From: Actinomycetota bacterium
GTDB taxonomy: Bacteria; Actinomycetota; UBA4738; HRBIN12
Length of the DNA: 64,000 bases
Direction of reading: 5' to 3'
Assembly (NCBI GenBank): GCA_035697485.1
Contig: DASSCU010000021.1
Span: forward strand, 1 to 64,000
Part shown: piece by piece, positions 2,910-7,060 of the stretch
Numbering within the stretch: the stretch's first letter is position 1
How the letters are laid out: every line of letters starts with the position of its first letter
Translations under genes and position numbers: made by a program
Notes under the pieces: model-generated
What the model saw: the letters and a program-made list of their open reading frames with translations, nothing else
Told to the model about the DNA's origin: nothing
The model's database searches: none

Positions 2910-4691
2910 CTACGCGACGCAGGCGCTCGGGTCGATCTGGAACCGAACGATGCGCGTCGCCCACTTCCACTGACCGGTCTTCTTGTAGTACTGCTGCGTG
3001 TAGTAGAACGTGCAGCCGTCCTCGGCCACGGTCATGTCGGAGTAGTCACCCCACCTGCCGAACTGACCGTCCACGGATCCGAGACCCGTGAACACCTTCC
3101 GCTCGGCGAGGTCGAACGTGTCCGCCGGACCCCCCGCTGTGCGACCTGCGATCGCGATCGACGGATAGATCTTGCCGCTCGAGAGCGAATACCCGGTGGC
3201 GATGTTGCCGTCGGCGTCCATCGCAACGCTGCCCATCCAACGACTCTTCGTGTCGTCGGGCGAGTAGGTGCCCTGATTCACGATCGCCCAGCCGCTGCCG
3301 TCGTCCATCAGCTCGTACCAGCGCAGCCCGGCCCGCTTCGTGGCCGCACGGACGGTGTGCGTCACGACCATGCGCGCGTCGCCCGCCCCGAGGTGCCGAT
3401 ACTGCAGCCGGAACATCAGGCGATCGTTGAGCGCGTCGACCTTGGTCTTGGTGCCCTTCTGCGGCACGCAGAAGGTCTTCCCCACTCCGCAGATCCACGG
3501 GTTGAAGGGCTCCGTCGTCAGCAGCGTCGGTCCGATGAACGTGGCCGTGTCGGTGGCCCAATCGACCGTGAACTCGAAGAGCTCGAGCTGATCATGGGGA
3601 TAGCCCCACTCGTTCGCATCGAACTGCATGAACACGTTCGGCTGGTTCGCACCCGGCGTCAAGGCGCCGTCGGCGTCCGACGGCAGCTGGCCACCGAGGT
3701 TCGGGTCGGTGCCGTAGAGGTTCACGTAGATCTGCCCGGCAGGAAGGCCGGCGATCATCGCGTCGCGCTCATAGGCGATCGCCCCCGCACCCCGCCAGTC
3801 GAAATCACACACGTTCGAGCTGCAGCGGAACTGGTTGAAGGAGGCGAAGTACGCGGAGTTGTTGGCCGCCGGCCACACCCCGAGCTTCGGGTAGTCGTTC
3901 AACACGTTCTGGTTCGGGTAGTCGAACTGGTAGGCGACCCACGCACCCGTCGGATCGCTCGTGTCGGAGACCGCGATGCACTCCGCGAACCTCGGCGTGT
4001 TGAAGTTCAGGGCGAACTGCGAGATCAACCAGACGTCGGCGTACTCGTCGTACACGACGATCGGATCGCCGTCGTCGTGCCTCGCACAGAGCTTCTGCGT
4101 CGCGGGATCGAACAGCGACGACATGAAGGTCGGCCCCTCGATCTTGGCCCCCGTGTCGGCGTCGTAGATCGCGAACGCCACGTTGACCATCTGCAGGTAG
4201 AACCCACCGCCGACGTCACCGTTCGGGTCCGGCGGCACGAGCTTGAATGGGTTCGCCGCGGCGCCGAGCCCGCCGACCTCGAGGTCGGGTGCCGGGATCT
4301 GGATCGCCCCACGCTCGGTCTGCAGCGCACCGTCGGCCTCGTCGAGCGTCGACGACGAATCGAGAGCGGGCCGCTGCTCCCCGGCGTCCGCCTCCGCGCC
4401 CGCCTCGAGCCGCAGCTCCTTCTTCACCCACGGCACCCTCGTCGGCCGATGCTGGGGCAGGGCTGCCAACGACGCCGTGCGGTGCGGCTTCGCCACTTTG
4501 CCGGACACCGGCCTGGCCCGCGCGCCGCCCTCGCCCTCCGCGAGACCGACGGCGCCGTCGGCGTTGGCACCTAGCGCGCGCACCGGCCGTCTGGGCGCCG
4601 TGGTGGTGCCGGTCGCGGCCAAGGCGATGGCCCCGGCGACCAGGCCCAGCGCCGTCGCCGTCGCGACGGCGCGTATCCACATCCTCTTCAC
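2910..4691 (-). CDS. Secreted protein of an uncharacterised, beta-propeller-like family
   Basis: The predicted protein of 593 residues starts at a GTG (4691) with GGAGGGG 4-5 nt upstream. It opens with a basic stretch and a hydrophobic signal segment (roughly residues 7-27) ending near ALAATG, so it should be exported. After a low-complexity linker it carries motifs such as PPDPNGDVGGGFYLQMVN, GDPIVVYDEYADVWLISQF, NDYPKLGVW and GRWGDYSDM, which recur in large secreted proteins of unknown function in many bacteria. The repeated short strands suggest a beta-propeller, but that is inference. No catalytic residues are recognisable to me. Codon usage matches the neighbours. Confidence 0.85.
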   Translation of the reverse strand: MKRMWIRAVATATALGLVAGAIALAATGTTTAPRRPVRALGANADGAVGLAEGEGGARARPVSGKVAKPHRTASLAALPQHRPTRVPWVKKELRLEAGAEADAGEQRPALDSSSTLDEADGALQTERGAIQIPAPDLEVGGLGAAANPFKLVPPDPNGDVGGGFYLQMVNVAFAIYDADTGAKIEGPTFMSSLFDPATQKLCARHDDGDPIVVYDEYADVWLISQFALNFNTPRFAECIAVSDTSDPTGAWVAYQFDYPNQNVLNDYPKLGVWPAANNSAYFASFNQFRCSSNVCDFDWRGAGAIAYERDAMIAGLPAGQIYVNLYGTDPNLGGQLPSDADGALTPGANQPNVFMQFDANEWGYPHDQLELFEFTVDWATDTATFIGPTLLTTEPFNPWICGVGKTFCVPQKGTKTKVDALNDRLMFRLQYRHLGAGDARMVVTHTVRAATKRAGLRWYELMDDGSGWAIVNQGTYSPDDTKSRWMGSVAMDADGNIATGYSLSSGKIYPSIAIAGRTAGGPADTFDLAERKVFTGLGSVDGQFGRWGDYSDMTVAEDGCTFYYTQQYYKKTGQWKWATRIVRFQIDPSACVA

Positions 4692-4819
4692 TGAACCCCT
4701 CCAGCCTTCGCGGCCATCCAGGCGATGGCACCGCGGCGCGCACAGGATAGCCCCTCCGGTAACGCATGCTCGTCGGCCGGCCGGGTGATCCTCACGCGAC
4801 TCGTGCAGCCGGTGCGTCG

Positions 4820-4849
4820 TTGACGTCGTCGTGGCCCAGCGGTCACAAT
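4820..4849 (+). promoter_or_regulatory. Promoter of the trp leader transcript
   Basis: A -35 box TTGACG (4820-4825) and a -10 box CACAAT (4844-4849) are separated by 18 nt. Transcription would start about 7 nt after the -10 box, which falls on the A of the trpL ATG at 4856. The transcript is therefore predicted to be leaderless. Confidence 0.65.
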
Positions 4850-4855
4850 CGGAGG

Positions 4856-4921
4856 ATGTCGACGCGGGCGTTCCGCTGGTCCTGGCGCTGGGGCGACACC
4901 CCGGCGCTCGCGTTCGCCTGA
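4856..4921 (+). CDS. trpL: trp leader peptide (21 aa, three Trp codons)
   Basis: A short reading frame just upstream of trpE encodes MSTRAFRWSWRWGDTPALAF plus a final Ala, then TGA. The Trp codons are at 4877, 4883 and 4889, separated by single codons. Three Trp in 21 residues immediately before trpE is the hallmark of a tryptophan attenuator leader. A GGAGG directly abuts the ATG with no spacing, so it cannot work as a normal ribosome-binding site. Together with the promoter position this points to leaderless translation. When charged tRNA-Trp is scarce a ribosome would stall on these codons, melting the hairpin whose 5' arm contains the third Trp codon. Confidence 0.8.
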   Translation: MSTRAFRWSWRWGDTPALAFA

Positions 4922-4958
4922 CGATCACCGCTCCGCCTCGACGACCGCGAACCCCGGG
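4885..4958 (+). promoter_or_regulatory. trp attenuator: 1:2 hairpin and alternative 2:3 antiterminator
   Basis: The 1:2 hairpin pairs 4885-4893 with 4899-4907 (9 bp including one GU, loop CGACA), and its 5' arm contains the third Trp codon. If a stalled ribosome opens it, strand 2 can pair with strand 3 in two nested blocks: CCCGG 4900-4904 with CCGGG 4954-4958, and GTTCGC 4912-4917 with GCGAAC 4947-4952. That pairing consumes the 5' arm of the downstream terminator. The pairings are read by eye; their relative stabilities were not computed. Confidence 0.65.
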
Positions 4959-4971
4959 CGACCCCCGGGGT
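4951..4971 (+). terminator. trp attenuator terminator hairpin (3:4)
   Basis: ACCCCGGG (4951-4958) and CCCGGGGT (4964-4971) form a perfect 8-bp stem with a 5-nt loop, followed by the T-rich run TCGTTCGTTCTCTT, unusual for this GC-rich sequence. It lies between the trpL stop and the trpE ribosome-binding site, and so would terminate the leader transcript when tryptophan is plentiful. Confidence 0.7.
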
Positions 4972-5000
4972 CGTTCGTTCTCTTGAGGAGACGCCGCACC

Positions 5001-6497
5001 GTGGACATGCAGATCAGACCCGACCGCGAGACGTTCGATACCCTCGCGGCCGAGTGGCCGCTCGTCCCGGTCTGGGCTGAGCTGCTCTCCGACGTCTCCA
5101 CGCCCGTGGGACTGTTCCCCGCGCTCGCCGGCGACGGTCCGGGGCTGCTCCTGGAATCGGTGGAGCGCTCCGAGCGATGGGGCCGGTACTCGTTCGTGGC
5201 CGGCGACCCGGCCGCCACGATCGTGGCCGATCGCGACGGCCTGCGGATCGTCGACGTCGTCCGGGAGCTTCCGTTCATACCGGGGATCGGGGCCCCCCGA
5301 GAGGCCTTGATCGAGGTCGCTCGCTCGCTGCGAGCTCCGCGACAGCCCGACCTGCCGGCACTGACCGGCGGGTTGATGGGGTACGTGGCGTTCGAGGCGG
5401 CGACGCTGCTCGACGGCCACCCGGTTCCCGACCCCTCGTCTGCACCGGTGCCGCCGATCGCCCTGCTCGTGGTCGACCGGGCGGTCGTGTTCGACCACTG
5501 GAAGCAGCGCCTCCTGCTCGTCTCCCACGTGCCGGGGGGCCGCTACGACGACGGCGTCGACGCCGTGGAGGACCTGGCCGACCGAATCGAGCACGCGACG
5601 CCTCCCCCACTCGCCGCGATGCCGGCGGGAGCGTCCGACATCGTGGGCGAGCCCAACATGCCCGACGAGCGCTACCTCGAGATCGTCGATTCGTTCAAGG
5701 CGCACATCCGGGCCGGAGACATCTTCCAGGGGGTGCCGTCGCGACGGGTCACGTTCCCCGCGCCGGACGGTGGCTACGCGATCTACCGGCGCCTGCGGGT
5801 CGCGAACCCCGCGCCGTACATGTTCTTCGTGCGGATGATGGGCATCGAGCTCGCCGGCTCGTCACCGGAGCCGCTGGTCCGCGTCGAGCACGGCCGGGTG
5901 TCGACCCGCCCGATCGCGGGCACCCGCCCCCGAGGAGAGACCGAGGTCCGCGACCGTCTGCTCGAGCACGAGCTGCTCGCCGATCCGAAGGAGCAGGCTG
6001 AGCACGCGATGCTCGTCGACCTCGCCCGCAATGACCTCGGGCGCGTGTGCACCGCGGGAAGCGTCGCGCCGTCCCAGCTGATGGAGGTCGAGCGGTTCAC
6101 GAAGGTCATGCACATCGTCTCGACGGTGGAGGGCGACCTGCGCGACGACATGCACCCCTTCGATGCCCTCTCGGTGACGTTCCCGGCCGGCACCCTGAGC
6201 GGAGCCCCCAAGCGTCGAGCGATGGAGCTGATCGCGTCCCACGAGCCCGACGCCCGCGGGCCGTACGGTGGGGCGGTGGGCTACTGCACGTTCCAGGGCG
6301 ATCTGGACTTCTGCATCACGATCCGCACCGCGGTCGTCAAGGATGGGAGTGCCCACCTGCAGTCGGGCGCGGGCGTCGTAGCCGACTCCGACCCCCAGTC
6401 AGAGCTCGACGAGACGAAGGCCAAGGCCTCGGCCCTGCTGCCGGCGGTCGCGCCCGGCCGGGTCGACCACCCGGCTGCCGAGGAGGCGGTCCGATGA
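5001..6497 (+). CDS. trpE: Anthranilate synthase component I
   Basis: TrpE converts chorismate and ammonia (from TrpG) to anthranilate, the first step of tryptophan synthesis. The 498-residue protein has the feedback-inhibition motif LLLES at residues 49-53, then the catalytic chorismate-binding domain with EVERFTKVMHIVST, TLSGAPKRRAMELI and GPYGGAVGY. GTG at 5001 is preferred because GAGGAG lies about 10 nt upstream; an ATG at 5007 is also possible. It follows the trpL attenuator and overlaps trpG by 4 nt (ATGA). The LLES motif together with the Trp-rich leader argues for anthranilate rather than aminodeoxychorismate synthesis. No other trp genes are in the window. Confidence 0.95.
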   Translation: MDMQIRPDRETFDTLAAEWPLVPVWAELLSDVSTPVGLFPALAGDGPGLLLESVERSERWGRYSFVAGDPAATIVADRDGLRIVDVVRELPFIPGIGAPREALIEVARSLRAPRQPDLPALTGGLMGYVAFEAATLLDGHPVPDPSSAPVPPIALLVVDRAVVFDHWKQRLLLVSHVPGGRYDDGVDAVEDLADRIEHATPPPLAAMPAGASDIVGEPNMPDERYLEIVDSFKAHIRAGDIFQGVPSRRVTFPAPDGGYAIYRRLRVANPAPYMFFVRMMGIELAGSSPEPLVRVEHGRVSTRPIAGTRPRGETEVRDRLLEHELLADPKEQAEHAMLVDLARNDLGRVCTAGSVAPSQLMEVERFTKVMHIVSTVEGDLRDDMHPFDALSVTFPAGTLSGAPKRRAMELIASHEPDARGPYGGAVGYCTFQGDLDFCITIRTAVVKDGSAHLQSGAGVVADSDPQSELDETKAKASALLPAVAPGRVDHPAAEEAVR

Positions 6498-7060
6498 TCC
6501 TGGTCGTCGATCACTACGACTCGTTCACCTACAACCTCGTGCAGCTGGTCGAGTCGCTCGGACGCGAGACCGAGGTCGTGAAGAGCGACGCCGAGCCGGC
6601 CGAGGCGCTCGTCGCGCGCGTGCCCGCAGCGGTGATCCTCTCGCCGGGCCCGGGTCGCCCCGAATCCGCGGGGTGCTTCACCGAACTGCTCGAAGCCCTC
6701 CCCGCCGGCACGCCCGTGCTCGGGGTGTGCCTCGGGCACCAGGCCATCGGCATCGAGTACGGCGGTGCGGTCGACCGCACCGAACCCGTCCACGGCAAGG
6801 CCTCGTCGGTGCGTCACGACGGCAGCGGCATCTTCGAAGGGGTCCATGATCCGTTCGAGGCCGGCCGGTACCACTCGCTGATCGTGGAGCGAAACCGGCT
6901 GCCCGACGAGCTCGTGCTCACCGCCTGGACCGAGGACGGACTCGTGATGGGTACCCGGCATCGCGAGCTGCCCAGGTTCGGGGTGCAGTTCCACCCGGAG
7001 AGCATCCTCACCCCTGAGGGCCCGAAGATCGTGCGGAACTTCCTCGCGCTCGTCGGCTGA
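6494..7060 (+). CDS. trpG: Anthranilate synthase component II (glutamine amidotransferase)
   Basis: A class I glutamine amidotransferase of 188 residues that supplies ammonia to TrpE. The catalytic triad is visible: Cys79 in GVCLGHQAIG, and His167 and Glu169 in QFHPES. The ATG overlaps the trpE stop (ATGA), implying coupled translation and a stoichiometric complex. TrpG proteins of this type often also serve folate synthesis as PabA. That is possible here because no separate pabA is in view, but it cannot be decided from the sequence. Confidence 0.94.
   Translation: MILVVDHYDSFTYNLVQLVESLGRETEVVKSDAEPAEALVARVPAAVILSPGPGRPESAGCFTELLEALPAGTPVLGVCLGHQAIGIEYGGAVDRTEPVHGKASSVRHDGSGIFEGVHDPFEAGRYHSLIVERNRLPDELVLTAWTEDGLVMGTRHRELPRFGVQFHPESILTPEGPKIVRNFLALVG

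Follow-up and report, generated by a model that had tools for sequence, protein, structure and literature searches.

The window that we analysed, a stretch of 64,000 nt belonging to a 3.4-Mb assembly of 64 contigs, carries a trpEG pair on its forward strand, on which the parts of the leader described below also lie. The first gene, trpE (5001-6497, GTG start), encodes component I of anthranilate synthase. It matches TIGR00564 with an E value of 1.8e-142, which is below the curated cut-off of that model, and shares 67-83% identity with its relatives in the order. The second gene, trpG (6494-7060), encodes the glutamine amidotransferase subunit (188.9 bits with TIGR00566, whose cut-off is 121) and its ATG overlaps the trpE stop codon. 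A ribosome-binding site for trpE, GAGGAG (4985-4990), is found 10 nt before the GTG at 5001.

Upstream of trpE, a promoter scan of the 901 nt from 4500 to 5400 yielded one sigma-70-like promoter, compared to a mean of 0.0 in shuffled sequences. It consists of a -35 hexamer TTGACG (4820-4825) and a -10 hexamer CACAAT (4844-4849) separated by an 18-nt spacer. The ATG at 4856-4858, 6 nt past the -10 hexamer, is positioned at the expected +1, as had been proposed in an earlier note made from the sequence. It opens a trpL open reading frame (ORF) (4856-4921), MSTRAFRWSWRWGDTPALAFA, composed of 21 codons and a TGA stop codon (4919-4921), in which codons 8, 10, and 12 (4877-4879, 4883-4885, and 4889-4891) specify Trp. 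An ORF with three Trp codons preceding trpEG is what is expected of a leader-peptide attenuator of trp genes. The GGAGG (4851-4855) that adjoins the leader ATG is best read as a chance occurrence, since it would lie upstream of the expected transcript and is not conserved in relatives.

As also expected of an attenuator, an intrinsic terminator sits between the leader ORF and trpE. Its hairpin (4951-4971), which was called by a terminator scan (mean of 0.1 in shuffled sequences), is formed by pairing of ACCCCGGG with CCCGGGGT (4951-4958/4964-4971), strands 3 and 4, with an energy of -22.4 kcal/mol when flanks are included and a z score of -2.6. The tail that follows (4972-4984, CGUUCGUUCUCUU) is an imperfect U-rich one. 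The earlier note had described it as a T-rich run; CGTTCGTTCTCTT is indeed rich in T, but it is interrupted by C and G. T-rich tails follow the hairpin in most relatives as well.

The leader can form two further pairings. Strand 1 (4884-4893), which lies within the ORF where it overlaps codons 10-13 (the same codons in most relatives), pairs with strand 2 (4899-4908) through GCGCTGGGG/CCCCGGCGC (4885-4893/4899-4907) and one extra pair, 4884/4908. Alternatively, strand 2 can pair with strand 3 (4947-4958), which is thus shared between antiterminator and terminator. This 2:3 pairing is made of CCCGG (4900-4904) with CCGGG, plus the second half of strand 2, GTTCGC (4912-4917), with GCGAAC (4947-4952). 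All coordinates stated in the earlier note proved correct when compared with the sequence. As modeled, the 1:2, 2:3, and 3:4 pairings appear mutually exclusive, and a ribosome stalled at Trp would free strand 2, which is the arrangement expected of an attenuator.

We folded the leader, as the earlier note had suggested. The free RNA folds into the 1:2 hairpin (4884-4893/4899-4908) and the 3:4 terminator, while the duplex between strands 2 and 3 has an energy of -22.5 kcal/mol, better than 97.8% of the duplexes obtained with shuffled strand 2 sequences. Among 12 relatives that possess the element (see below), this duplex exceeds shuffled strand 2 at p<0.05 in six. At equilibrium, however, the terminator outcompetes the 2:3 pairing in the 4900-4985 segment even when strand 1 is covered, and antitermination must therefore be kinetic, as in the standard model. 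When a ribosome is placed on Trp8 or Trp10 before strand 4 has been synthesized, the prediction is that strand 3 is largely base-paired to the leader in 10 of the 12 (mean 0.55-0.91), the two exceptions being the leaders of a genus in which the leader is short.

Could a Trp-rich frame and GC-rich hairpins have arisen by chance in GC-rich DNA? The fold energy of the 145-nt leader as a whole, which is ordinary for its composition (z score of -0.4), would be compatible with this. We therefore base our case chiefly on conservation, together with the terminator and the alternative pairing. We collected the trpE loci across the order, which include 17 intact trpE genes, and found the leader element upstream of 12 of them. 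Loss of the Trp-rich frame and hairpins from close relatives would have spoken against the original proposal, but both are present at these 12 loci. Since in-frame Trp codons, promoter, and hairpin recur upstream of trpE in 12 genomes whose TrpE proteins are 67-83% identical to that of the window, a chance origin is already refuted, and we regard it as vanishingly improbable. In the three nearest metagenome-assembled genomes, TrpE is 72-83% identical.

All parts of the element recur in these relatives. A TTGAC -35 and a xA(C/G)xAT -10 are found in 12/12, with a spacer of 17-18 nt, and the start codon follows 6-10 nt past the -10 (9-10 nt in 8/12). While codons 2-7 of the leader ORF are variable, Trp10 and Gly13 are present in 12/12, Trp8 in 11/12, and Trp12 in 3/12, all in frame. 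In the 5' arm of the terminator, which belongs to strand 3, CCCCGGG is invariant in 12/12, with outer pairs that are A-T, G-T, G-C, or C-G. An arm-swap test for co-evolution of the paired strands was not significant (p=0.15 for 2:3, p=0.12 for 3:4, and p=0.07 for 1:2) because the pairing cores are nearly invariant. We therefore claim no covariation, and it is conservation that carries the case for the attenuator.

The pattern TTGACNN{15,18}NANNATN{20,34}TGGNNNTGG has a single match in the 3.4-Mb genome, which is exactly the trpE leader, and no match elsewhere in that genome, the other trp genes and trpS included. Our reading also covered the sequence that precedes trpS and the surroundings of trpC-trpB. 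Across 27 genomes of the order, the same pattern has 14 matches, 11 of which are directly upstream of trpE. The assembly contains no DAHP synthase II.

The element is lacking from 5 of the 17 trpE genes, and several loci depart from the common arrangement. In two genomes of one genus (L010, approximately -96 to -30, and L011, approximately -103 to -30 relative to trpE), the promoter is retained while the leader ORF is gone, and a terminator-like CCCCGGACC/GGTCCGGGG hairpin directly follows the promoter, at what would be the extreme 5' terminus of the transcript. This looks as if the leader had been deleted, and is possibly a decayed attenuator. In a sister genome (G001; L004, minus strand 2956-3116), promoter, 6-nt gap, and terminator are retained, and Trp8 is replaced by a Cys codon (TGT), which leaves one Trp codon. 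In another genus (L015 and L016), a TAG within the usual 1:2 hairpin cuts the leader to 14 codons and the predicted 2:3 pairing is weak. On this modeling, these two leaders may work differently.

Where does translation of the leader begin? The trp leader lacks a usable Shine-Dalgarno (SD) sequence. We surveyed TANNNT motifs upstream of 292 called genes in approximately 450 kb of the genome (the window plus 20 further stretches, L124-L143). The motif occurs 6, 7, 8, and 9 nt before candidate starts in 24, 19, 11, and 11 cases, respectively, a total of 65, against a background outside 6-11 nt of mostly 0-5 counts per position (roughly 2). This sharp peak makes leaderless transcripts look common in this genome, and the 6-nt gap of the trp leader coincides with its mode. 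For comparison, the mean distance from the -10 to the start site is 6.3 nt in Streptomyces lividans (PMC8079986). Leaderless initiation at trpL can therefore be inferred with good support from sequence, and in this genome the transcript most likely starts exactly with the AUG.

The leader might instead be translated from a normal or very short 5' untranslated region (UTR), that is, from a 5' end of 2-4 nt rather than a true 5' AUG. Such a start would fit the 9-10 nt that separate the -10 from the start codon in 8 of 12 relatives, five of which (L005, L012, L014, L017, and L018) have ACG directly before the ATG, and there is a precedent in the Corynebacterium glutamicum ilvBNC transcript, which starts one nucleotide from the leader start codon (PMC11857589). 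Since the 6-nt gap seen here coincides with the mode of the genome-wide peak, we consider a short UTR unlikely in this organism, and either way there is no space for a working SD. For the family as a whole, the longer gap in most relatives makes it safer to speak of a 5' end of 0-4 nt.

A blind scan for a leaderless promoter plus start codon also brought up a second locus in the same genome, approximately 0.5 kb upstream of ilvB (L128:7721-7880, G000:C17). There, a TTGACA..TAAACT promoter precedes a candidate leaderless ORF, M-T-MFSEDSITRRTTLVLIS (TTLVLIS), which is followed by a GC hairpin of the C5GC..GCG5-T5 type and a CCCCCGCAGCCGCGGGGGTTTTTC terminator, with a small ORF between this leader and ilvB. 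Judging from these features, the locus looks like a second leaderless attenuator.

Taken with the pairings, the terminator scan, and the conservation in 12 of the 17 trpE genes, these findings uphold the initial view that a complete trp attenuator precedes trpEG. The element is very probably a ribosome-mediated, leader-peptide transcription attenuator of trpEG, read from a leaderless leader ORF. The sequence, the pairings, their conservation, and the position before trpE are observed, and from them we infer the start site, the leaderless loading of 70S ribosomes, the response to Trp, and termination. Transcription would start on A4856 or within one or two bases of it, and a ribosome would engage the 5'-terminal AUG without an SD sequence. 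A shortage of charged tRNA-Trp would make this ribosome stall at Trp8, Trp10, or Trp12 and cover strand 1, so that strand 2 (4899-4917) could pair with strand 3 (4947-4958) while the latter is being synthesized by RNA polymerase. With the 2:3 pairing formed, there would be no terminator and trpEG would be transcribed. When Trp is plentiful, the ribosome would reach the stop codon at 4919 and cover strand 2, and the 3:4 hairpin (4951-4971) would end transcription. If there is no initiation, the 1:2 hairpin would form and termination would also be expected.

Control might be exerted on translation instead, with the leader and hairpins governing trpE initiation via reinitiation or occlusion of its SD. 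The trpE ribosome-binding site at 4985-4990 is near the 3:4 hairpin, and for Actinobacteria it has been proposed that ribosomes reinitiate after translating a leader peptide. However, 79 nt separate the leader stop and the start of trpE, the SD lies beyond the end of the hairpin, which has a T-rich run after it, and the terminator hairpin is conserved among relatives while its distance to trpE varies, which makes translational control very unlikely in our opinion. The terminator could also serve a different Trp sensor (a T-box, a TRAP-like protein, or a riboswitch), the ORF being incidental, since all such systems place a terminator in front of a biosynthetic gene. This is hardly credible because only approximately 95 nt of transcript precede the terminator and it is the Trp codons that are conserved. 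A search of the window against Rfam returned no T-box or other cis-regulator at gathering score, and there was no credible match at E<=10 in 4800-5010.

The closest counterpart of this transcription attenuator is trpL1 of S. lividans TK24 (MFAHSTRNWWWTAHPAAH), which lies upstream of trpE, is leaderless by RNA-seq, and is followed by two hairpins and a U-rich stretch (PMC8079986). As here, a Trp-rich leader of approximately 20 codons precedes trpE and Rho-independent attenuation is predicted. However, trpL1 has a WWW run rather than W-x-W, trpE is monocistronic there rather than part of trpEG, and beyond the Trp codons no sequence similarity is recognizable. Classical trp attenuators with double or triple UGG repeats have been predicted in Corynebacterium and Streptomyces by Seliverstov et al. 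in 2005 (PMC1262725), which also cites experimental work on the trp attenuators of C. glutamicum and S. venezuelae. They share with the present leader a leader peptide, an alternative antiterminator, and a GC-rich terminator before trp genes, but have consecutive UGG codons and another gene order. The leaders of Corynebacterium ilvB attenuators are leaderless or one base from the transcript end (PMC5784534; PMC11857589). Leaderless poly-Cys upstream ORFs, as cited in PMC9031893, act as attenuators of mycobacterial cysteine operons, although PMC1262725 found no terminator hairpin for the cysteine leaders of mycobacteria. In both of these systems, as would be the case here, a leaderless ORF is used and translation speed gates downstream expression, but other amino acids are involved.

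In the rest of the phylum, clear WW/WWW leaders were found in 4 of 60 regions upstream of trpE (L099, L106, L113, and L114), which represent two families. Like the leader described here, they have a start codon 6-10 nt past the -10, are located before trpE, and possess hairpins with T tails; unlike it, they have consecutive Trp codons and an unrelated leader sequence. These four leaders are unannotated, with near-zero 5' UTRs, and come from two distant Actinomycetota families.

The trp leader of Escherichia coli is SD-led and has a long 5' UTR, consecutive WW, and a stop codon between strands 1 and 2. Its four-strand logic (strands 1-4) and the position of its Trp codons, at approximately codon 10, are shared with the present leader. 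The corresponding Rfam covariance model, RF00513 (Trp_leader), finds no match here at gathering or permissive thresholds; the leader would work like RF00513 but is not a member of it. One could imagine that the fixed W-x-W spacing, with Trp at codons 8 and 10 of a transcript whose first codon is the start codon, is an adaptation and that individual loadings of 70S ribosomes on nascent RNA determine attenuation, in place of the queues and SD-driven initiation of E. coli. A stalled ribosome would then occupy the 5' end completely, leaving no room for a second one to load. We consider this idea quite improbable.

A leaderless trp leader is not novel, as it has already been described in S. lividans, and leaderless leaders also exist in Corynebacterium and Mycobacterium. 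The earlier note had singled out the leaderless start as the distinctive part, a view that the reported trpL1-trpE (PMC8079986) does not allow us to keep. Its other emphasis, W-x-W in place of WW/WWW, concerns a feature that is real and order-wide, but small. What is new is the lineage together with the fixed W-x-W spacing, a minor variant of a device already mapped in Streptomyces, and the known mechanism of attenuation is left unchanged. An uncultured actinobacterial order is thereby added to the lineages in which tryptophan synthesis is controlled by a leader peptide, here with a leaderless leader. Together with the leaders in two other families, the element in this order suggests, from sequence comparison, that leaderless trp attenuation may be common across Actinomycetota and may have been lost repeatedly. 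Moreover, since the start codon and the codons for stalling stand at set distances from the 5' end of the RNA, the trp leader is a clean natural substrate for measuring how fast ribosomes load on leaderless nascent RNA.
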